NCBI GenBank assembly: GCA_902777275.1
Contig: CACYTI010000025.1
Span: 1-35,504 of the forward strand
Direction: 5' to 3'
Origin: an uncultured Ruminococcus sp.
GTDB lineage: Bacteria; Bacillota; Clostridia; Oscillospirales; Acutalibacteraceae
DNA: 35,504 nt
Part shown: one piece after another, positions 1,117 through 15,229 of the stretch
How the letters are laid out: each line of letters begins with the position of its first letter
Numbering within the stretch: position 1 is the stretch's first letter
Notes under the pieces: model-generated
Told to the model about the DNA's origin: nothing
The model's input: the letters and a program-made list of their open reading frames with translations, nothing else
Databases searched by the model: none
Translations under genes and position numbers: made by a program

Positions 1117-1302
1117 TCAGGTGTAAAGTAGCTCTACATTTACAATCTCCGTCGCACGGTTGCGAATATTATTCATTCTCGCAACCCACAACATTTGATT
1201 ATTCGCTTTGAGCTGTTCAGTTATACCTTCTTTTTCGGCAAGTTGTTTTACCAACCGAAAGAATAGTTCCTCTGCCTGCTCGTCTGCGTAAGCCACCCAT
1301 TC
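1117..1302 (-). pseudogene. TnpV-family transposon protein, C-terminal remnant
   Basis: The minus strand encodes the conserved C-terminal part of TnpV, a small protein of Firmicutes transposons and integrative elements. Recognizable segments are DEQAEELFFRLVKQ, then GITEQLK, then WVARMNNIRNRATEIVN and a final ELLYT, roughly 60 of the usual 110-120 residues. The N-terminal half is missing: going upstream the frame runs straight into a tRNA 3' fragment (1303-1361), whose antisense translation produces spurious residues (MDHRGIEPLTSRL). No start codon or ribosome binding site belongs to the remnant. The role of TnpV is not established. The break marks a recombination junction. Confidence 0.8.
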
Positions 1303-1361
1303 GGGAGAGCGCCAGGTTCGCAATCTGGAGGTCAGGGGTTCGATCCCCCTATGGTCCACCA
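1303..1361 (+). tRNA. 3' fragment of tRNA-Ala (anticodon CGC), 5' part missing
   Basis: The fragment begins in the D-arm (GGGAGAGC), then has an anticodon arm CCAGG-TTCGCAA-TCTGG with anticodon CGC, a variable loop, T-arm AGGGG-TTCGATC-CCCCT, acceptor 3' strand ATGGTCC, discriminator A and encoded CCA. U at the position equivalent to 70 would give the G3:U70 pair that marks alanine tRNAs. The expected 5' acceptor strand (GGGCCAT) and most of the D-arm are absent; the TnpV remnant lies there instead. It is most simply a non-functional copy, an attachment-site duplicate left by an integrative element or a deletion scar. Confidence 0.7.
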
Positions 1362-2061: not shown

Positions 2062-2456
2062 CTTCTCTACCTCTAATAAAGGACTAATATCATTATACGA
2101 ATATTTGTTCTAAAATTCAAGAGGATATTTGAAAATAAATGATAATAGGAGTGTTTGCGTTTTAATAAAAGATAATTACTGAATTTTTATTGTTTTGCCC
2201 TTTGTTTCGACAGAATAATCAGGTAATCCCTGCTATGATATATAGCAGTGGAATTTTATACAAGATTTTACAAAAAGACAGAATATAAACAACGAACAAA
2301 AGGGGAATATGGAAATTATAGCAGAATAACAGATGATTTAGGCGTTGTGTCGTTGAAGGACGATACAGCGCTTTTTTCATCGACAAAAATATACTCTATC
2401 TTTTGTGATTTTGCTTTTTCGTACATAAAAGAACAGAATAGCACTTTAATTCGCGC
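2062..2456. other. AT-rich intergenic stretch with no clear gene
   Basis: No convincing gene is visible. A plus-strand frame from GTG 2248 runs to 2529 and overlaps the start of the sigma-like gene by 20 bases, but it has no ribosome binding site and an unnatural composition. A small perfect dyad, TGCTAT-GATAT-ATAGCA, lies at 2231-2247 and could be an operator or part of a promoter for the downstream operon. Confidence 0.5.
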
Positions 2457-2502
2457 TCCTCCGCTCAACTTGAAACCTAACCATTTCAAGTTGAACGGAG
2501 GA
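2457..2502 (+). promoter_or_regulatory. RNA hairpin sequestering the ribosome binding site of the sigma-like gene
   Basis: TCCTCCGCTCAACTTGAAA (2457-2475) and TTTCAAGTTGAACGGAGGA (2484-2502) pair over 18 of 19 positions (one C-A mismatch, 2464/2495) around the 8-nt loop CCTAACCA. The right arm ends in GGAGGA, the Shine-Dalgarno sequence of the TTG start at 2510, and the left arm supplies a perfect anti-Shine-Dalgarno TCCTCC. No T-run follows, so it is not a terminator. Translation of the gene should be blocked unless the hairpin is melted, for example by upstream translation or an RNA or protein ligand. Confidence 0.75.
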
Positions 2503-2509
2503 CTTATAA

Positions 2510-3079
2510 TTGTCAATCTTTTTTATTGAAGATAAAAACGGAGATTACTTCTCTGCCGACGGTAAGAGAAGATTTATTAGATTAACAGGCAAAGCGGCTT
2601 ATGACTATTTCAAAAGCCCGAACGGACGAGGAAAACGCTTCTATAAGCTGTCAGCCGAAGATGAAACGGAAGATGATGTTTTTATTGAGATTCCTTCCTC
2701 TAAAATCAGCCACATCCGTAACGGCGAACGTCGTACCCAATATGTCGCTGATTGCAAGAAAAAAAGCGGACGATACGAAATCTCGCTGTATGCTTTGGAA
2801 GCAAACGAACACGGCGAAAGGTGTTCCGGCGAGGAATTGATCGAGGACGTCGATATTGATGTTGAGAGCGCAGCTATACATAATATCGAGCTTGAAAAGC
2901 TCTATCAGGCTGTTCAATCGCTTTCAGAAGAAGAACAGGAACTTGTAGCCCGTCTGTATAGCAAAAAGCCTGCAACAATCATTGATTTGTCAAAGGAATG
3001 GAACGTCCATTTTTCCACCATCAGTCGCAAACATAAGGCTATTTTAAGAAAACTAAAAAACTTTTTGAAAAATTCTTAA
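2510..3079 (+). CDS. Mobile-element sigma-70-like factor
   Basis: 189 aa. The C-terminal part (about 125-187) resembles sigma-70 region 4: a helical stretch LSEEEQELVARLY followed by an HTH, TIIDLSKEWNVHFSTISRKH, and a basic tail LRKLKNFLKN. The N-terminal 120 residues are typical of sigma-like proteins of Firmicutes conjugative elements and lack a region 2, so it may act as an accessory transcription factor rather than a full sigma. The start is TTG at 2510, chosen because GGAGGA sits 7 bp upstream. That site is buried in a stable hairpin (2457-2502). It is the first gene of the element module leading to the MazF-like gene and recombinase. Family fairly certain; promoter targets unknown. Confidence 0.8.
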   Translation: MSIFFIEDKNGDYFSADGKRRFIRLTGKAAYDYFKSPNGRGKRFYKLSAEDETEDDVFIEIPSSKISHIRNGERRTQYVADCKKKSGRYEISLYALEANEHGERCSGEELIEDVDIDVESAAIHNIELEKLYQAVQSLSEEEQELVARLYSKKPATIIDLSKEWNVHFSTISRKHKAILRKLKNFLKNS

Positions 3080-3683
3080 AAAAGTCTGCAAAAAATTCTG
3101 AAAAAGTGTGGAATAAAGGGTGAGAGGGTTATTTACCTCTTTTGCCAAAGAATTGGCAAGCCCTTTGACAACCGAATAACAGCATATCAGAAACTTTCCC
3201 TTTGTTGTCCGGCACGGACAAGCTACAGAAGCGAACGCTGCTTTGCAGCCTTCAGGACTTCGACCTTGATAGGCACAATCAAGGAGGGCGATGACAGACA
3301 AAGGGCATAATGATACTTCCGTTTAGTCACAGTCCGAGCGTTAAAAGCGTCGCAGGCAATGAGAGCGGCTATGAGAGATCCTTGTAGTATGCCGTAAGGC
3401 TGATGAGGTCAATATGCGTTGACCGTCTGATGTGTTCCCGTTCGGGGGAGTTGAGAACGAATACCGAACAAAAAGTCGCAGTACAGCAGAGCCATTCATT
3501 ACACAGCTCGCGGCAAACTATGTCCTCAAAAGGAAAGCAACCACAATGCCGCTTGTATTGCGCTCTGTTGCGACTTGGCATCAAAACGGACTTGAGCTGT
3601 TCGTTCAATATGGATGCAATAAAACGAAAACAGCGCGTATCTGTGAAAGGTACGCGCTGACTACATAATACGGAGGTATTATT
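3080..3683 (+). other. Hairpin-rich 600-bp stretch without a convincing gene
   Basis: Several perfect small stems are visible: TGCCAA-AGAA-TTGGCA near 3143-3158, GCTGC-TTT-GCAGC near 3238-3250, CCTTGAT-AGGCACA-ATCAAGG near 3263-3283, GGTCAA-TATGCG-TTGACC at 3407-3424 and AGCGCGTA...TACGCGCT at 3632-3658, just upstream of the MazF-like gene. Open frames exist (3403-3660 and 3432-3668, plus strand), but they overlap each other and lack good ribosome binding sites. The second (ending GCNKTKTARICERYALTT) could be real. The stretch is either a structured untranslated RNA or leader of the element, or a degraded gene. Confidence 0.5.
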
Positions 3684-4052
3684 TTGAGAGTTTACAGAGG
3701 CGAAGTCTATTTAGTGGACTTCGGTATAGGCTATGGCAGCGAACAGGGCGGTGTTCGTCCGGCTGTCATCGTCCAGAACAATATAGGTAATAAATACAGT
3801 CCCACGACAATCGTTGTCCCTGTCACGTCCAGACAGACAAAGGCACATATCCCTACGCACGTTAGAGTAAAAGGTGCTTGTCTGACAAAGAAATCGTTGG
3901 CGCTCACAGAACAGGTTGCGACCATTGACAAAAGAAGGATCATCAGAAAAATGGGCAACATCAAGCTCAAATCCCTTTTCAAAATCGGTACGGCGCTTAT
4001 GATCGGCTTGGGACTGAACAACAATACATTCAAGAAAGGAAGTCACAAATGA
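3684..4052 (+). CDS. PemK/MazF-family protein (putative endoribonuclease toxin)
   Basis: 122 aa with the family opening RGEVYLVDFGIGYGSEQGG followed by VRPAVIVQN, then TTIVVPVTS and LTKKSLALTEQVATIDK. MazF-fold proteins are usually sequence-specific mRNA endoribonucleases neutralized by a small antitoxin. The start is TTG 3684 with GGAGG about 9 bp upstream. No antitoxin gene is present immediately upstream; the preceding 600 bp hold hairpins and weak frames. The stop overlaps the next start in an ATGA tetrad. MazF-like genes without a standard antitoxin are common in Firmicutes integrative elements, where the role may be regulatory. Fold certain; toxicity is inferred. Confidence 0.85.
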   Translation: MRVYRGEVYLVDFGIGYGSEQGGVRPAVIVQNNIGNKYSPTTIVVPVTSRQTKAHIPTHVRVKGACLTKKSLALTEQVATIDKRRIIRKMGNIKLKSLFKIGTALMIGLGLNNNTFKKGSHK

Positions 4053-4189
4053 TAGGATTTATAGTCGGCTTATTCGTCGGCGCTTTTCTCGGAGTAGTGG
4101 TTATGTGCTGCTGCTTTGTAGCTTCAAAGGCTGACGACGAGATGGAGAAGATGAAAACAGACACTTTAGGCGAAAAGGATGACCGCTGA
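4049..4189 (+). CDS. DUF3789-type small membrane protein (46 aa)
   Basis: The sequence begins MIGFIVGLFVGAFLGVVVMC, a single transmembrane helix, followed by CCFVASKADDEMEKMK and a charged tail ending GEKDDR. This matches the short DUF3789 proteins that accompany mobile elements. The ATG overlaps the MazF-like stop (ATGA), so it is translationally coupled. Function unknown. Confidence 0.75.
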   Translation: MIGFIVGLFVGAFLGVVVMCCCFVASKADDEMEKMKTDTLGEKDDR

Positions 4190-4249
4190 ATATTAGCATT
4201 TTGTGCTGACAATACTACTCTTACGGTGATAAAAAATTATGGAGGTTAT

Positions 4250-4429
4250 ATGCGAATTAATGATGACAATACCGTACTCGAAGGTGCAGGATGTAATGTT
4301 CAAAATAATGAAGAATATCAAATCAATCAAGTGATGTATCAAGTAAATCGTTTTTTTGAAGGTGACAAGACTATTAAGGAACTTCTTTCCCTAAAACTTT
4401 CCAGCGAATATAGCGCATCGCATAATTGA
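4250..4429 (+). CDS. Small conserved-looking element protein (59 aa), function unknown
   Basis: Starting at ATG 4250 (GGAGG four bases upstream) it reads MRINDDNTVLEGAGCNVQNN and continues through YQINQVMYQVNRFFEGDKTI to a short Ser-rich end. An upstream in-frame GTG (4226) lacks a comparable ribosome binding site. It is soluble, slightly acidic and has no recognizable domain. It lies directly before the serine recombinase; the recombinase -35 box overlaps its last codons. Small genes at this position can encode excision or directionality factors, but nothing in the sequence proves that here. Confidence 0.6.
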   Translation: MRINDDNTVLEGAGCNVQNNEEYQINQVMYQVNRFFEGDKTIKELLSLKLSSEYSASHN

Positions 4430-4483
4430 TAAGCAAAACGACTTATGATATACTGTTGTTGTTGAAGTTAAGAAACAGCAGTA
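4426..4483 (+). promoter_or_regulatory. Promoter and dyad upstream of the serine recombinase
   Basis: TTGATA (4426-4431) and TATACT (4449-4454) have a 17-bp spacer. TACTGTTGTT (4451-4460) and AACAGCAGTA (4474-4483) form a 10-bp inverted repeat with one mismatch, covering the -10 and the expected transcript start. It could be an operator or an RNA hairpin in front of the GGAGGA (4485-4490) of the recombinase. Confidence 0.6.
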
Positions 4484-4499
4484 TGGAGGAGATGACTAA

Positions 4500-6119
4500 A
4501 TGAAAACTGCTGTTGCTTTAGCTGATATTTACTTGAGATTATCTCGTGAAGAAGCAAGCTCGGGTGAATCTCAAAGTATCAATAACCAACGAAATATCAT
4601 TAGACAATACTGTAGTGATCACGGTATCACAATCGTCAGGGAGTTTGTTGATGACGGCTTTTCGGGATCGAATTTTATCAGACCGGGATTTCAAGCGATG
4701 TTAAATCATATTAAAACCGGTTTGGTGAATATGGTTATCACCAAAGATTTATCCCGATTAGGCAGAGATATGTCGGAATCAAGCTATTATGCGGAATCGT
4801 TCTTTCCCGAACACGATATTCACTATCTCGCAATCAGCGATGGATTTGATTCCGAGCAAGTCAACCTGATGGCACCTTTCCAATTTGCAATGAATGATGT
4901 CTATCTAAGAGATTGCTCACGGAAGATAAAACAGGTTATTAAGCAAAAGCGAGTACGCGGTGAATACTGTGCTTGTCCGCCGTTTGGTTATATGCGTAAT
5001 CCGAATGACAAATCAAGCATTGTTCCCGATCCGAATACAGCTCCGATCGTGCAGCGCATTTATGCTCTTGCGGTTAAAGGGTGTTCTGCTCATTCAATCG
5101 CCAATATTTTGACTGATGAATCTGTTATAACGCCATTAAAGTACAGAGTTATGTATCGTGATAATTTTAGCGACAAAGGTGCCGCACACGCTACAGATAT
5201 TTGGAATGTCTTGGGAATGACGAAGAAAGCATCGGTTAAATCCAAAAAGAAAGTCAATATTCCGGAAGATGAATGGTGTATCACTTATAATACGCACACG
5301 CCACTCATTACTCAGGAAGAATATGATACAGCTCAATATAATATGGGTATGAATACAAAGAGTTGGAGCAAATATGACAATGTCCGAAAAAGTATTTTTA
5401 ACGGATTGATTTTTTGCAAAAACTGCGGTTCTGCTCTATGTTCATCCGGTTCTGTTTATAAAGGTGAACGAGTGAAATATTGGTATCTTTCCTGCCTGAA
5501 TATTCCGAAGCGTTCAACCAACCATTGTGAACACGGGGCGCGTATCAAGTACGCTGACTTAGTTGAGATTGTAAAATCTGAGCTGAATCATTTTATCTCT
5601 CTCAGCAAAAAGGATATTGACGAGATTATTGATGTTGCTATCAAGGAAAGCTCAAAAAATGCTTATCAGGAAAAAGATAGTCTAAAGAGTATTGAAAAGA
5701 GAATCGCTGACATTGACAATATCATCTTGAAACTCTACAACGATAATGCTCTTGGAAAGATTTCTGATGAACAATTATCTTTAATGATTGCAAAACTAAA
5801 TAAGGAATCAGCATCATTAAAGGAAAGAGCTAAAGAGCTTCAGAAAAAATCAGATGAACAACCGATTGATGAAGCATATAAAACTTTCTTCCACCTTATT
5901 GAGCAGTACAACCACATCGACGAATTAACGCCTGAGATTGTCAGAACATTTATTGAAAGAATCGAAGTCGGTGAGAAGATATTGCCCGATGGCTATAAGG
6001 TAGCTTCGCACAGTATTCCGTTTAGACAAGATGTGAAAATCACATATCGGTTTATCGGAAACATCGGCAAAGACGAAAGAGCTTTTAATCAGGATGATTT
6101 ACCGTCAAAAATCGCTTAG
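4500..6119 (+). CDS. Large serine recombinase (TnpX/TndX-like integrase)
   Basis: 539 aa. The N-terminal resolvase domain has the catalytic serine in YLRLSREE (Ser15) and the arginine-rich active-site segment TKDLSRLGRD (about residues 80-92). A recombinase domain follows (about 165-290), then a zinc-ribbon with CKNCGSALC near 304-312 and paired cysteines near 331 and 343, a coiled-coil stretch (about 390-450) and a C-terminal block LTPEIVRTFIERIEVGE typical of DUF4368. Such enzymes integrate and excise elements between short att sites through a serine-DNA intermediate. The gene has its own promoter and ends about 20 bp before a truncated spore-protein gene, as expected for an integrase at the end of its element. 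The catalytic residues look intact. Confidence 0.93.
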   Translation: MKTAVALADIYLRLSREEASSGESQSINNQRNIIRQYCSDHGITIVREFVDDGFSGSNFIRPGFQAMLNHIKTGLVNMVITKDLSRLGRDMSESSYYAESFFPEHDIHYLAISDGFDSEQVNLMAPFQFAMNDVYLRDCSRKIKQVIKQKRVRGEYCACPPFGYMRNPNDKSSIVPDPNTAPIVQRIYALAVKGCSAHSIANILTDESVITPLKYRVMYRDNFSDKGAAHATDIWNVLGMTKKASVKSKKKVNIPEDEWCITYNTHTPLITQEEYDTAQYNMGMNTKSWSKYDNVRKSIFNGLIFCKNCGSALCSSGSVYKGERVKYWYLSCLNIPKRSTNHCEHGARIKYADLVEIVKSELNHFISLSKKDIDEIIDVAIKESSKNAYQEKDSLKSIEKRIADIDNIILKLYNDNALGKISDEQLSLMIAKLNKESASLKERAKELQKKSDEQPIDEAYKTFFHLIEQYNHIDELTPEIVRTFIERIEVGEKILPDGYKVASHSIPFRQDVKITYRFIGNIGKDERAFNQDDLPSKIA

Positions 6120-6141
6120 TTTTTGATGTAATTGAACGCCA

Positions 6142-6264
6142 AGGGAGGTGGGCGTAAACCTCAAGCAGGGCTATAACGGCGACCTCAGCTCAAGAGAAGC
6201 AGGCTCCGTCGGCGGTCAGATGGTCAAGAGAATGATCGAGTCCTACGAGAACAGCATGAAATAA
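6142..6264 (+). pseudogene. Alpha/beta-type small acid-soluble spore protein, 5'-truncated by element insertion
   Basis: The plus strand reads REVGVNLKQGYNGDLSSREA, then GSVGGQMVKRMIESYE and NSMK before TAA 6262-6264. This is the C-terminal two thirds of an alpha/beta SASP, the DNA-coating proteins of bacterial spores. The N-terminal segment (about 20 residues) and start codon are missing; the sequence becomes element DNA about 20 bp after the recombinase stop. A strong terminator follows, as after an intact SASP gene. The missing half should lie at the other end of the element, left of this window. The attachment core is probably at 6130-6150. Confidence 0.85.
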
Positions 6265-6288: not shown

Positions 6289-6330
6289 AAACGGCTGTGC
6301 CGGGCGCTTGCCTGACACAGCCGTTTATTA
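6289..6330 (+). terminator. Terminator of the spore-protein gene
   Basis: AAACGGCTGTG (6289-6299) pairs perfectly with CACAGCCGTTT (6316-6326), followed by ATTA. It lies 24 bp after the SASP stop. Confidence 0.75.
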
Positions 6331-10312: not shown

Positions 10313-13300
10313 CTATACGGTCTGTCCTATGGGATAGCTCACGTTGTATTCCGCGAGGTACTGTTGCAGAGCGGTCGCGTCAGCAATGGTGACATCTCCG
10401 TCGCCGTTGACGTCCGCTGCAAGAAGGGCAGTACCCGTCAGAGCTTCAAGCTGCGCTATATGGCGCTGTATGGCGGTGACGTCCTTGACGTTTACAATGC
10501 CGTCGAGCGTGGCGTCGCCGATTTTGTATTCCATGTGCAGAACCGCTTCGCCGATGCTGTTGAGCTGTACCGTGTAGTCGCTGTCATTGCTGATAAAGTT
10601 GGATGCGGTGCCTTTTCCGTTCAGCCCCGATGTGAACGCGCTGCCGTCGGGCTCGCTTTGACGCACGCCGATCTTAGCGTTCACGGTCAGAGCGCCAGCT
10701 ACCGTGATGGTGCTGCCGTTGTTGACGAACACGTCGTCAGCCGCTCCGCCCGCCGTGTTGCCTGTGATGACGGGCGAGCCTGAAATGCCGAATGTGCCGC
10801 CGCTGCAGAATACGCCGCCGCCGCTGACAGCAGCGCTGTTGCCCTTGACAGTGATGTCCCTGACGGTGAGCTTGCCGTTATTCAGGATACCGCCGCCTGA
10901 CGCGGTGTTGTTGCCGCCGGTGATCGTTCCGCCGCCGGTGACGGTAAGTATTCCGTTGTTTGTGATGACGTTGCCGTTTGCTGCCGCGCTCTTATCCGCA
11001 AGATCCCTGTTGAGGGTACAGCCGTTTAGGTCGAGGGTGAGCGGCTTGCCTTCGGGAATGACCAGCGCGGTGTCAGAGACAAGCGCCGTGCAGTCTTTGC
11101 TCAGCTTGATGGTGTTGCCGGCTCGGGCGAGGTCGATCTTCTGCTGCAGCTCCTTCCAGGACGTAGCGGTATGAACGGTGGCGGTGTCGAGCAGACCAAT
11201 GCTGACAATATCGGAGCGCTGCTCAGAGTTGCCGCATTGGATGGTGCAGATGATGCCCGTGTCCTTGAAGCTCTCCTTTTTGTCTCCGTCAACGGCAATG
11301 CTGCAGCTGCTTTTGTACCTTCCGTCGTCGTCGGCTTCTCTCAGAGTTTCCTCAGCTATCTTTACCCATTTGTCTGTAAGCGGGCTGCGTTTCATCCAGG
11401 TGAAGGTTACGTCGCCGTCAGCAGGGTGGAAGTCCTCCGCCAACTCCGCTTCAATGCCGAAATACGCTGTTTCGCTGCTGCTGTCATTCGTCATCCAGTA
11501 GGTTTCCGGCTGCTTGGTGATGATGATGTTTTTGTTTATGTCTTCAACATTCATTATCGTCGCTTTCTTGCTGATCGTGCCCTCCAGCACAGTGTTGATA
11601 TCGCCTGCCTTGTAATATGCGGGGGCGAGATAAAAGTTCAGATTTTCTGTTCTATAATCGTTAGCTCCCAAATGGACCGTATAGGTCGTATAATGAGAGT
11701 TTTGGTTTGCTACGATGAGGCCGTCCTTGTTTTGCAGATGGATATGTCCCTGCCAATTCTGGTTGGCGTCATCCATATAGATGTTGTAGCCGTCAGGTTT
11801 TCTTCTTTGGTTGCGGTTGACGGCGTCCCAGATAAGCGTGACGTCCAGTGAACCGTCATCGTACTTCCGCACAGATTGGATCGCAAAATCCTTCGGCTGT
11901 TCGGGCGGGAAGGCATAGTTCAGCTCTGCGGGAGAGTTGTTACCTTCAAGCGAAACGGTGAGCCGGGGGATATCGGTATAGAAGCCGTGCGCGTATATGC
12001 CCACTATGCTGCCGCCGCTGTAATCGGTCTTGTAGCACACGGAGGTCGCGTCGTAGTTGTACCAGTCTCCCGTTGTCGGTTGATAGTGATTGATCACCGC
12101 GTCGCTGTTACCGTAGGTTTCAATACTGTCGTCAAAGGTCAGACTTCCGAGCAGCTGTTGATTCGCCAGCGGCGGATAGTAGGTCGTGCCGAAGGAAACG
12201 CCGTCCATGCTGCCGGTTCCGGAGGTGCTGCCATATTCTCCCACTAAATTGCCGTTTAGGTCGCCTTTGAAATATCCTGCATCAACGCCGAGATGAAAGC
12301 CAAGGTGAGCGTCAACCGTGCCGCCTGCTTCCGTTGTGGTGCCGTAACCGAATTCGATCTCGGTTCCGACCAATGCAATATTATTGTTGTTGTACACGTT
12401 GGCGGTCATATCTCCGGCGGAGGTGGAGCCGGAACCGATAGAGCTTTGTCCGATGACGTCCTCAAGGTTGTGATCGTACGCTGTCGGGTCTCCGCAGACT
12501 GTATTCGGGAGTATCGTATCGTCGATCGGCTTTAATTTATTTTCATCGGGAAGGTCGTCGCCCGTCTGCAATTCTGCCGCCTTATTGTATTCGCTGATGG
12601 GGATCGCCGTAAAGATCGGTTCCTCCATCATGCTGTACTGAACGATTTCGTGTTCCAGTATTCCTGCTTCGTCGCCCGATTCACATGCCGCATCGGAGGC
12701 TGCTAAGGCTTCGTCGGAGGGTCTTGTGTGGTAGACCTCATAGACGTTGATGACCAACGGCGTCACGTAGCATACCGCACAGTCCTCCTCCGATTCGATG
12801 TCGAGCGACCGGGTGAGCGTCCTGTCGTGTGACCACGTTTTATTACTGACATGTCGCACGTCAGCTCCAACGGATCCCTGTAATTGCACATGTTTATTTC
12901 CTCCTCCTATGTCAAGGTCAACAGCGATGCCGGCGCTCCATTCGACCGCGGAATCCTCGGTGTTGCCCACGATCAGACTGAAATCATATGCATAGATACC
13001 GTTTGCCTCTTCGTAATAGGGCGGTACCTGCAAAATCGAGTAGAGGGCGGGCGCGGAGTAGCTGCAATAGGTGCCTATCCAGCGGTAAACGGCGGTATCC
13101 GGCTCGCTGTCGATGAAGTGGACGAACAGAGAGGAGCCGTGACGGTCGGAGTCTCCTTCGCCTGTTAATTGATAGTCGTTGTGGGACTTCACTACCCATG
13201 CTTCGTCGTCTGCGGAATAAGAGAGAATGGAGATATCCCAGCAGTAAGTTTTAACGAAATCCCAAGTGATAACAGCGATTTGATCCAGCTCGGAGCCTGT

Positions 13301-15229
13301 GATGAACCGTCCTGAGGCACAGGAGTCATACCATGAGAAATCTGTAGTGAGAAGCGAGCTCAAATCATAGTAATATTTTTCTTCAAGGATCACCTCTCCC
13401 GCGGGGAAGTTGAGTTTATCGCAGCCCGGCAGGGTATCGGCGACGTAATTTGTTTTGACGCCGCTGATGTTGTAGCTGTAATAGAGCGGCTTGCCTGAGA
13501 TTTTGGTATTTTTCAAATCATAAACGAATCCGTTGATATACACCTGATCCTTTAAATCGAGCTTTCCCGGAAGAAAATGACCGGCACAAAGCGAAACGGG
13601 AGGGAATACGCGGTAGTTTCTGAGAGCGAATGCACCATGTTCCTGTTTTGACTGGTCGATGGTCATATCATTAGTCCAAACAATATCATAGCAGCCGTTT
13701 TGGCAGTCGTAGGTGATTATATTGGCGCAGGAGATTGTAGGATCGAGACATTCGTCTTTTATATAGCAATAGCCCGCAACGAAGATCTCCTTGAAGCCGT
13801 CGCCGTTGAGGTCGGCGTCACAGGTGTTTACACCGTGCATACGGCGTTTACAGTTATCGGGGTCGTCAGCAATAGTAAATTCCTCATATTCATGCTGAAA
13901 CAGCTTTTGATAGCTGCCGTCCTTCTTTCCGAAGATCGCGGTGGTGGAATCGGTGTTCAGTGCGCTTCCCTCATATGTTTCCGGAACTGAAACCGAAACG
14001 ACCAAATCGTCGAAGGTTTCGTAGCGTTTAGCGCTGCAGGTGTTGGGGTCGGTGTTGACCACATTGCCGAGACGGGTAGAGGTAGTGGAGAGAGCGACGA
14101 TCGGAAGACATAAGCCGTTTCCCATCTCGCCGTAATCGGAGCAGATGTTCTTCAGATAGAAGCTTGCCAGCTCGCTGTGGCTGCATTGCCCGTCGATCAG
14201 GTTAAATTTCTCGATGATAACGCGGGCGTCTTGGGCGTCGCTGTCGCCTCCTTTATCGGGCATATAGTAGGCGAGTTCCTCGTTGCCGTCGCCGTCATAA
14301 TCGCCCGCGGCAAGCGATAAAAAGGCTTTGCTTTCGCATTCGATGAGATTTCTGTACAGATAGTCGCTGTACGACATGATCATATGGTATTCATCTATCT
14401 TAGACCATACGTAGTTGTTGCTGCTGCCCGGAACTCTGTCATAAAGCTGCACGCGGATATAGGTGCCCGGCTGCATATTGTCGCTGTCGGTTTCCTTTTG
14501 CTGCAGGCTGTAGTAGGCGAGCTCGTCAGCGCCGTCGCCGTCAACATCTATGCCGATGGCGTTGGAGTAAGCGGTGTTCCAATTGTTGTCGTCATCGTGG
14601 AAAAACACGTCGTCGGTGTTTTTGGCGAGGTTGTCAAAGTTGTTTGACTGGATATCGTCCATAGACTCTACGTCGTTGCAGGTGTGAAGATAGGTGTCAA
14701 AATCATTGTTGCGGTTGCAGTCGCCGATCAGCAGCTCGTTCGGGTTGATATAGGAATATCCCGACAGAGGATCCTGACAATTAGGATCGGCGGCGTAATC
14801 CTTGGCGTTTGATTGCAGCTGCTCATAAGAAAGCCCCAGTGCGCCGTACACCTCTGCGCTAGCGGAGGTCGTGTGGAAATACTCGGAGTATTCCTCACTT
14901 GTAGCATAGTTGTCAGGGTCTACGAGTTCACGCACATAGTTGGTGTCTTCCATTATCTGGCTGGTTTTGCCCGTATGACGTACCAATATAGAGGTGTCAA
15001 GCTGATCCTCGGTGAACTGACCGACTGTTGCCGCAGCCGGGTCATAAGCCGGCGGCTTTGTCGGTTGGGGATCGTCGCCGACATCGGAAGCGGGCGCGGC
15101 GGCGGCTGCAACAGCGGTGTTGCCGTTCTCAGCAGCCGAACCGGTGAAAACGCCTGCCGTAACAGTCGGCACGATCATACATACTGCCAAAACAATTGAC
15201 AGCAGTTGTTTTGATTTGCGTTTGAGCAT
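10313..15229 (-). CDS. Very large secreted protein with FG-GAP-like repeats, beta-helix region and C-terminal type I dockerin
   Basis: 1638 aa. A signal peptide (residues 1 to about 31: KRKSKQLL, hydrophobic core, GSAAE) marks it as secreted. Three FG-GAP/VCBS-like calcium loops occur: DVDGDGADELAYY (228-240), DYDGDGNEELAYY (310-322) and DADLNGDGFKEIF (471-483). A fibronectin III-like region lies around 1110-1220 and an Ig-like region around 1240-1345. A Gly/Thr-rich region with TLDLNGCTL, ITNNGILTVTGGGTIT and GILNNGKLTV (about 1390-1520) resembles a parallel beta-helix. The last 60 residues are a dockerin: two loops, GDATLDGIVNVKDV and DVNGDGDVTIADA, each followed by a helix. Dockerins bind cohesins in cellulosome-like complexes. 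No catalytic domain is recognized, so the role may be adhesion or structure. AAGGAGG lies six bases before the ATG. Confidence 0.85.
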   Translation of the reverse strand: MLKRKSKQLLSIVLAVCMIVPTVTAGVFTGSAAENGNTAVAAAAAPASDVGDDPQPTKPPAYDPAAATVGQFTEDQLDTSILVRHTGKTSQIMEDTNYVRELVDPDNYATSEEYSEYFHTTSASAEVYGALGLSYEQLQSNAKDYAADPNCQDPLSGYSYINPNELLIGDCNRNNDFDTYLHTCNDVESMDDIQSNNFDNLAKNTDDVFFHDDDNNWNTAYSNAIGIDVDGDGADELAYYSLQQKETDSDNMQPGTYIRVQLYDRVPGSSNNYVWSKIDEYHMIMSYSDYLYRNLIECESKAFLSLAAGDYDGDGNEELAYYMPDKGGDSDAQDARVIIEKFNLIDGQCSHSELASFYLKNICSDYGEMGNGLCLPIVALSTTSTRLGNVVNTDPNTCSAKRYETFDDLVVSVSVPETYEGSALNTDSTTAIFGKKDGSYQKLFQHEYEEFTIADDPDNCKRRMHGVNTCDADLNGDGFKEIFVAGYCYIKDECLDPTISCANIITYDCQNGCYDIVWTNDMTIDQSKQEHGAFALRNYRVFPPVSLCAGHFLPGKLDLKDQVYINGFVYDLKNTKISGKPLYYSYNISGVKTNYVADTLPGCDKLNFPAGEVILEEKYYYDLSSLLTTDFSWYDSCASGRFITGSELDQIAVITWDFVKTYCWDISILSYSADDEAWVVKSHNDYQLTGEGDSDRHGSSLFVHFIDSEPDTAVYRWIGTYCSYSAPALYSILQVPPYYEEANGIYAYDFSLIVGNTEDSAVEWSAGIAVDLDIGGGNKHVQLQGSVGADVRHVSNKTWSHDRTLTRSLDIESEEDCAVCYVTPLVINVYEVYHTRPSDEALAASDAACESGDEAGILEHEIVQYSMMEEPIFTAIPISEYNKAAELQTGDDLPDENKLKPIDDTILPNTVCGDPTAYDHNLEDVIGQSSIGSGSTSAGDMTANVYNNNNIALVGTEIEFGYGTTTEAGGTVDAHLGFHLGVDAGYFKGDLNGNLVGEYGSTSGTGSMDGVSFGTTYYPPLANQQLLGSLTFDDSIETYGNSDAVINHYQPTTGDWYNYDATSVCYKTDYSGGSIVGIYAHGFYTDIPRLTVSLEGNNSPAELNYAFPPEQPKDFAIQSVRKYDDGSLDVTLIWDAVNRNQRRKPDGYNIYMDDANQNWQGHIHLQNKDGLIVANQNSHYTTYTVHLGANDYRTENLNFYLAPAYYKAGDINTVLEGTISKKATIMNVEDINKNIIITKQPETYWMTNDSSSETAYFGIEAELAEDFHPADGDVTFTWMKRSPLTDKWVKIAEETLREADDDGRYKSSCSIAVDGDKKESFKDTGIICTIQCGNSEQRSDIVSIGLLDTATVHTATSWKELQQKIDLARAGNTIKLSKDCTALVSDTALVIPEGKPLTLDLNGCTLNRDLADKSAAANGNVITNNGILTVTGGGTITGGNNTASGGGILNNGKLTVRDITVKGNSAAVSGGGVFCSGGTFGISGSPVITGNTAGGAADDVFVNNGSTITVAGALTVNAKIGVRQSEPDGSAFTSGLNGKGTASNFISNDSDYTVQLNSIGEAVLHMEYKIGDATLDGIVNVKDVTAIQRHIAQLEALTGTALLAADVNGDGDVTIADATALQQYLAEYNVSYPIGQTV

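Follow-up and report, generated by a model that had tools for sequence, protein, structure and literature searches.

In a contig assigned to an uncultured Ruminococcus sp., a serine recombinase gene is followed by the C-terminal half of an alpha/beta spore-protein (SASP) gene. This raises the question whether an element has entered the SASP gene and, if so, whether the gene can be rebuilt by its excision. The window analyzed here, 35,504 nucleotides, is the whole contig, and the assembly of the source genome consists of 57 contigs. Comparison with related genomes shows that an element splits the sole detected SASP gene, and leads us to consider it probable, though by no means certain, that elements of this kind are precisely excised when the gene is needed. 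The following features of the window were identified:

2131..6144 (+), right-hand part of the inserted element, recognized by likeness to the L108 element; the left end lies off the contig
2510..3079 (+), cargo ORF with a weak sigma-70-like region 4 (NCBIfam TIGR02937, E 3.2e-7; Pfam Sigma70_r4, E 0.0055; each below its own cut-off)
3684..4052 (+), cargo ORF for a PemK/MazF-like protein (PF02452, E 5.5e-28)
4187..4217 (+), TGAATA...AATACTA, resembling a sporulation-type promoter and preceding the small ORF (blocks conserved among four aligned elements)
4250..4429 (+), small ORF (59 aa), candidate recombination directionality factor by place, size and weak conservation
4426..4454 (+), predicted sigma-A-type promoter of the recombinase, TTGATA-17-TATACT (alignment)
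4500..6119 (+), large serine recombinase, TnpX-like, with a 17-aa deletion (domain matches, alignment with relatives)
6141..6155 (+), right attachment site with the putative crossover at GA (left versus right ends of relatives)
6145..6264 (+), C half of the alpha/beta SASP gene with its stop codon (PF00269 match; translation)
6291..6329 (+), hairpin resembling a terminator of the SASP gene (identified by eye)

The interrupted SASP gene and its missing half

The SASP piece comprises the last 39 codons and the stop codon (translation EVGVNLKQGYNGDLSSREAGSVGGQMVKRMIESYENSMK*). It matches positions 21-59 of the PF00269 profile (66.4 bits, E 5.8e-18) and was the sole match to this profile in a search of the whole assembly. 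A sequence-only reading of the locus had described a recombinase gene about 20 bp before a SASP remnant without N-terminus but with intact C-terminus, stop and terminator. This description proved correct: the recombinase stop lies 25 bp before the C half, only the C-terminal profile positions are present, and the hairpin follows the gene. The same reading looked for the other element end to the left, but the window is the whole contig, so the left end lies outside. The part of the element that is present aligns at 2131-6167 with an element at another locus, L108 (91.4% identity over 4.1 kb). Elsewhere in the window, a fragment matching TnpV (PF14198), which we take to be a gene from Tn4451-type transposons, lies at 1117-1359 (-), and a 1638-aa protein, the end of which reads as dockerin-like in translation, is encoded at 10313-15229 (-). 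Goat rumen and deer are the recorded sources of several close relatives, likewise uncultured Ruminococcus.

A SASP 5' half with a shared core had also been expected. In the rest of the assembly it was found neither with a 33-aa query nor with a 32-nt degenerate pattern allowing up to three mismatches, but it is present in relatives. As the assembly is in 57 contigs, these searches do not show absence; the 5' half of the source genome may have fallen into a gap between contigs or have diverged too far. G015, a genome of the same genus, carries the N half on one contig and, on another, the C half beside a recombinase to which the window copy is 81% identical. The two G015 halves share the core GAGGTTGGCGTT, across which the in-frame reading is EAANEVGVNLK. 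Precise excision would thus restore a split sporulation gene in frame with the G015 halves; the window supplies the C half only. In G143 both halves are on one contig, 4.1 kb apart, and the recombinase adjoins the C half; in G080 the halves are 12.4 kb apart. Eight left ends were read in same-genus relatives. The left ends keep the GA of the glutamate codon and then diverge, and most right ends read AAGGGAGGT. Because GA is common to left and right ends, we infer that the crossover took place at 6145-6146 of the window.

Relatives with the 5' half and core, together with uninterrupted genes that are common in the genus, strongly support insertion into a SASP gene. None of these uninterrupted genes was found at the same chromosomal place, however. 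The gene next to the window SASP (DUF1015) was not near a SASP gene in the stretches of relatives that were compared, and judged by these stretches the chromosomal place of the SASP gene is not conserved among relatives.

The recombinase of the window

The recombinase (539 aa) comprises Resolvase, Recombinase, Zn ribbon and DUF4368 domains. The same TnpX-like domain set is found in a relative, P0002, to which the window copy is 81% identical and whose best PDB match, and thus best solved relative, is TnpX (2mhc, E 2.2e-29). YokA, presumably SprA of SPbeta, is a distant PDB relative of P0002 (E 6.6e-10). The window copy lacks 17 residues of the Recombinase domain that are kept in all 53 aligned relatives. 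Outside this clean 51-base deletion it is 97.2% identical to the L108 recombinase. Because residues common to all 53 relatives are lost, the window enzyme is probably impaired or defective, and the window copy is probably no longer able to excise. The statement that the recombinase keeps its catalytic motifs is nevertheless true: the N-terminal catalytic motif is present. A second recombinase copy was not detected in the source genome at E <= 1e-100 (8 of 20 first-look candidates scored). With an enzyme that is probably impaired and no further copy detected, the SASP split may be permanent in this genome. Among 54 recombinase reading stretches examined, none contained an internal stop.

Distribution within the genus

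PF00269 matches were obtained in 125 of 161 same-genus genomes, 112 of them with one match and 13 with two. The idea that the loss is tolerated because SASPs are redundant is not borne out by these numbers, which cover PF00269-type SASP only: the source genome, like the 112, has a single match. A clear break at the window's site (site 1), away from a contig edge, was seen in 11 genomes (G000, G015, G054, G067, G080, G096, G124, G128, G135, G137 and G143), and G096 has an intact SASP gene in addition. The window type of recombinase occurs in at least 8 of the 161 genomes (E <= 1e-100, with up to 8 first-look candidates scored per genome), and in seven of the eight it lies beside a SASP C half. 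In the eighth, G044, evidently the genome of L108, it lies at another locus and the SASP gene is intact. L108 (DEKP01000026.1, after 5565) carries an element 91% like that of the window at a GGGAAGTC site, in a target that reads like a tyrosine-recombinase gene. By its sequence, the L108 insertion is one at a secondary site.

SASPs are made in the forespore under sigma-G, and GPR is the protease that cuts them. Peptidase_A25, which we take to be this SASP protease, was found in 150 of the 161 genomes, including the source genome and all 11 genomes with a site-1 break. The source genome has a sigma-G-like factor at 389.8 bits, below the curated cut-off of 457, which none of the 161 genomes passed. 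Both matches count in favour of the excision reading, in that the host retains its equipment.

Recurrence in other genera

A wider scan with one genome per species yielded 74 recombinase loci. The 53 recombinases with at least 49% identity were all examined, and 51 of them have a SASP half within about 310 bp: 40 are followed by a C half on the same strand, and 11 have an N half on the opposite strand. The two without a SASP half are L108 and L152; the contig of L152 stops 5 bp beyond the match. At none of the 21 more distant loci does the recombinase adjoin a SASP half. TnpX and TndX are the recombinases of Tn4451 and Tn5397, and these elements use other sites, in contrast to the 51 relatives at the SASP gene.

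The SASP search took in 45 of the 53 genomes. In 31 of the 45 there was precisely one N piece together with one C piece, and the SASP gene was nowhere intact; in three of these (G182, G199 and G204) the C piece additionally ends around position 51. One SASP half only was found in nine genomes, G180 and G186 are complex, and the gene is intact or nearly so in G184, G177 and G218. Both halves lie on the same contig and strand in 11 of the 45 genomes, 4.0 to 75.8 kb apart. The halves at G197:C22:8360-84334, 76 kb apart on one contig, point to a very large insertion. At L129 (G195:C59) the N and C halves face each other on opposite strands with 6.8 kb between them, which looks like an inversion of the element or of a flank. 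The genus of A. massiliense (25 genomes) includes 13 genomes with an intact SASP gene, 10 split at site 1, one split at the second site described below and one without a match.

It is hardly conceivable that these arrangements are assembly artefacts or chance matches. Most sources are metagenome-assembled and some fragments lie at contig ends, but in 11 genomes the two halves share a contig and strand, which argues against this explanation, and one of these genomes is recorded as a strain, A. massiliense Marseille-P4005. Taken by their sequences, the split SASP gene and the element family are real and widespread, recurring in many Clostridia-type gut genomes.

In viral contigs (IMG/VR, best 80 of 144 matches) one relative of the recombinase reached 49% identity and the rest 38% or less. 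A viral origin was considered and rejected; the stretch of this nearest relative has only chance-level SASP matches. Among phage records one relative has 51% identity (MT836041); MT836041.1 was set aside as a phage because a SASP N half lies beside its recombinase, so that it is probably a chromosomal contig. This record, labelled bacteriophage, also contains an ORF that reads like a reverse transcriptase. Plasmid relatives have 35% identity or less among the 8 of 253 matches listed, with a plasmid TndX at 34%.

A second insertion site in SASP genes

In 23 further same-genus genomes the SASP piece ends at GGQMV, around position 51. An intact gene is present as well in two of these genomes (G133 and G161), and in G142 and G148 the pieces end at contig edges. 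GGQMV appears as a second, separate SASP insertion site (loci L057 at G039:C1:667411-667563, L025, L027-L030 and L061). Past GGQMV, five of seven sequences read have a similar replacement tail of the type NVMCPVRQ...YTYGLAV and two have another, MLPVRNK.... In the complete genome G039 the final SASP residues KKMIESYENAVK occur 23.5 kb downstream of the second site, where they close a reading frame that carries a serine-recombinase motif (motif read by eye). Such a remnant was not seen at 27 other loci within the stretches searched. L059 and L060 (in G080 and G143) represent SASP genes broken at both sites in the same genome. L061 (G161:C35) has a truncated and an intact SASP gene on the same contig, separated by 4.5 kb; the two are identical as far as the second site.

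Landing site or maintained insertion

An ordinary integrative element might use the SASP gene only as a conserved landing site, its loss being tolerated and the intact halves mostly reflecting recent insertion. Several observations agree with this. The distance between the halves in the 11 genomes is highly variable (see above) and the cargo differs in the four elements inspected; presence and absence are mixed within genera; and L108 represents insertion at a secondary site. Recombinases of the loci L102 and L103 are 96.8% alike and their flanks 83.5%, whereas those of L110 and L117 are 62.0% alike and their flanks 78.4%. As the recombinases of these pairs have not diverged in step with their flanks, some insertions appear to be horizontal or independent events, and not all are old. 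Further points in the same direction are the damaged recombinase of the window and the GPR matches in the wider set, found in 32 of the 45 genomes with such a recombinase and not found in 13. Five genomes of one small-ORF-upstream group (G197, G203, G206, G207 and G208) are all without GPR. Some hosts may be non-sporulating.

Four Agathobaculum genomes (G205, G215, G209 and G214) speak against the landing-site explanation. Their elements measure 16-23 kb, and element and both flanks share 85-92% identity. Divergence was compared in five of the six pairs, G209-G215 being left out. Identities of left flank, element and right flank are 91.6, 91.8 and 91.5% for G205-G215, 88.6, 85.6 and 87.1% for G209-G214, and 85.8, 84.7 and 84.6% for G205-G209, where the element figure covers 15.9 of the 23.2 kb of the G205 element. 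Because element and flanks are similarly diverged, the insertion looks inherited in these four genomes, and separate insertions are hard to fit. Of 66 codons of the split SASP gene, 12 vary across the four genomes, 11 synonymously and one nonsynonymously (P 7e-7, by a simple site-count binomial that ignores transition bias, codon usage and shared ancestry). The recombinase has a dN/dS of 0.06-0.08. On these codon changes both SASP halves are under purifying selection while split, so that by our own standard the host gene is selected in its interrupted state in these four genomes. The element-side bases of attL drift (GAGGTT, GAGCTT, GACCTT), and the attR copy that would serve in the rejoined gene is unchanged. 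This pattern matches the prediction of selection on the rejoined gene.

Taken together, co-divergence and synonymous change fit a gene that works after excision, like the skin element in sigK, and at least these four genomes are best explained by an insertion maintained through excision. Two further observations weaken the landing-site explanation, namely the absence of internal stops from all 54 recombinase stretches and the retention of GPR in 150 of 161 same-genus genomes. We hold it to be doubtful. A title on sporulation of Agathobaculum was not among the literature matches listed.

Conservation of both halves could also mean that they act as separate peptides, or that a truncated protein suffices. 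We regard this as very improbable. The C half in the window has no ATG: the frame after the upstream TGA begins TPREVGV, which leaves only an internal GTG as a possible start. Moreover, most Agathobaculum N halves stop within a few element-coded residues (G224 was left out of this left-end comparison).

Rebuilding of the gene by excision, as the sequence-only reading proposed, thus gains indirect support from co-divergence, purifying selection, constrained recombinases and a candidate directionality gene. An excised junction or circle was not found in the assembled sequences.

Small ORF, promoters and the timing of excision

By a mechanical rule, an ORF of 40-110 aa precedes 48 of the 53 related recombinases, although the one at L149 at least is in the wrong frame. 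An alignment of 41 such ORFs and that of the window contains one invariant arginine at a mean column identity of 25%. The small ORF of the window has no Pfam family; four of five small ORFs compared with Pfam gave no match and one a chance-level match. Its predicted structure (mean pLDDT 69) has no PDB match at E <= 0.001. The product is a candidate directionality factor by its position, size and weak conservation.

In the block before the small ORF, one of the four aligned elements has AATAATA. Upstream patterns were counted after having been chosen by inspection of the alignments. The 9-mer ACAATACTA was present upstream of 12 of 70 SASP genes, 4 of 42 small ORFs, none of 39 recombinases and none of 704 other ORFs (small ORFs versus other upstreams, Fisher P 8.7e-6). 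A composite promoter pattern was found before 5 of the 42 small ORFs and 2 of the 704 other ORFs, yet before just 1 of the 70 SASP genes. Most small-ORF upstreams, including those of Agathobaculum, do not match the SASP-like pattern. A SASP-like promoter before the small ORF is thus supported in a minority of lineages, among them that of the window. A model learned from SASP upstreams placed 15 of 42 small-ORF upstreams above threshold, compared with 16% of shuffles, and 9 of 40 recombinase upstreams, compared with 17% of shuffles, with ambiguous spacing; the enrichment was only moderate. A sigma-A-like pattern occurs upstream of 30 of 39 non-redundant recombinases, 81 of 704 other ORFs and none of the 42 small ORFs or 70 SASP genes.

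The preferred reading, maintenance by excision, may be summarized as follows. A site-specific integrative element, moved by a TnpX-like large serine recombinase, has entered the conserved E-V-G-V codons of the SASP gene. Precise excision, presumably when the gene is needed, would rejoin the halves in frame at ...EVGVNLK.... Speculatively, the recombinase would be made constitutively from its sigma-A-type promoter and the small upstream protein, expressed in some lineages from a SASP-like promoter, would set the direction; excision would then occur in the forespore, and once the spore has germinated the circle could integrate anew. Without such reintegration, forespore excision would remove the element from the germ line. 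The promoter resemblance in some lineages does no more than suggest forespore timing, and developmental control is speculative. The full cycle, in which excision in the forespore under a SASP-type promoter is followed by carriage of the circle in the spore and reintegration by a constitutive recombinase after germination, is rather unlikely in our judgement.

Excision might instead be stochastic or stress-driven rather than developmental, with element-free cells making fully protected spores. The frequent sigma-A-like recombinase upstreams (30/39) agree with this, and some contigs break at cores, as expected from mixed alleles (G040 at site 1; G148 and G142 at site 2), although strain mixtures can explain such breaks as well. 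The yin element of Clostridium botulinum is excised in part of the population at all times, as stated in the accessible part of that report (PMC10747680). However, the long retention in the four Agathobaculum genomes would require re-integration or rare loss, and the SASP-like promoter before the small ORF in some lineages points to developmental timing. We give this alternative limited credence.

Comparison with known elements and implications

Like sporulation gene-intervening elements, the present element encodes a site-specific serine recombinase. In the portions available to us, the work on Clostridioides difficile skin describes a recombinase under a sigma-A promoter and a small directionality factor that limits excision to the mother cell (PMC5025042). 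The arrangement at the SASP gene resembles skin (sigK; CD1231 and CD1234) in its large serine recombinase, sigma-A promoter, separate small gene and split sporulation gene. The likeness to CD1231 and CD1234 is drawn from gene arrangement; the target is a SASP gene instead of sigK, and excision is here proposed from comparison of genomes. SPbeta in spsM and gin in gerE of Bacillus likewise split a sporulation gene, and gin is described, in the parts of these papers that were accessible, as having three recombinases and no phage-related genes, gerE being a mother-cell gene (PMC5595907, PMC4191935). Unlike these, the same SASP site is hit in many genera. The insertion of yin in yabG shows a mixture of integrated and excised states and, according to the same partial source, is unique to one strain (PMC10747680), whereas the SASP-element family occurs in many genomes. 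SASP-splitting elements were not found in the titles and abstract openings of the open-access literature, a scope that excludes subscription papers and preprints.

The cell in which excision takes place determines what it costs. Excision in the mother cell costs an element nothing, because the mother cell dies. The genes spsM and yabG are mother-cell genes, and SASP acts in the forespore, which lives on. Mother-cell genes are also what the insertions in sigK and gerE concern, as far as the accessible text of the sources goes (PMC5025042, PMC5595907). If SASP is repaired in the forespore, the element is either lost or back after germination, which would be a different programmed rearrangement, taking place, unlike that of skin, in the surviving cell line. 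Because one site is hit in many gut genomes and a second site is used by other elements, SASP genes are a recurrent target, and the question can be put to the test in gut bacteria that are in culture. A SASP gene that seems truncated or missing in a genome need not mean that the DNA of the spore is unprotected.
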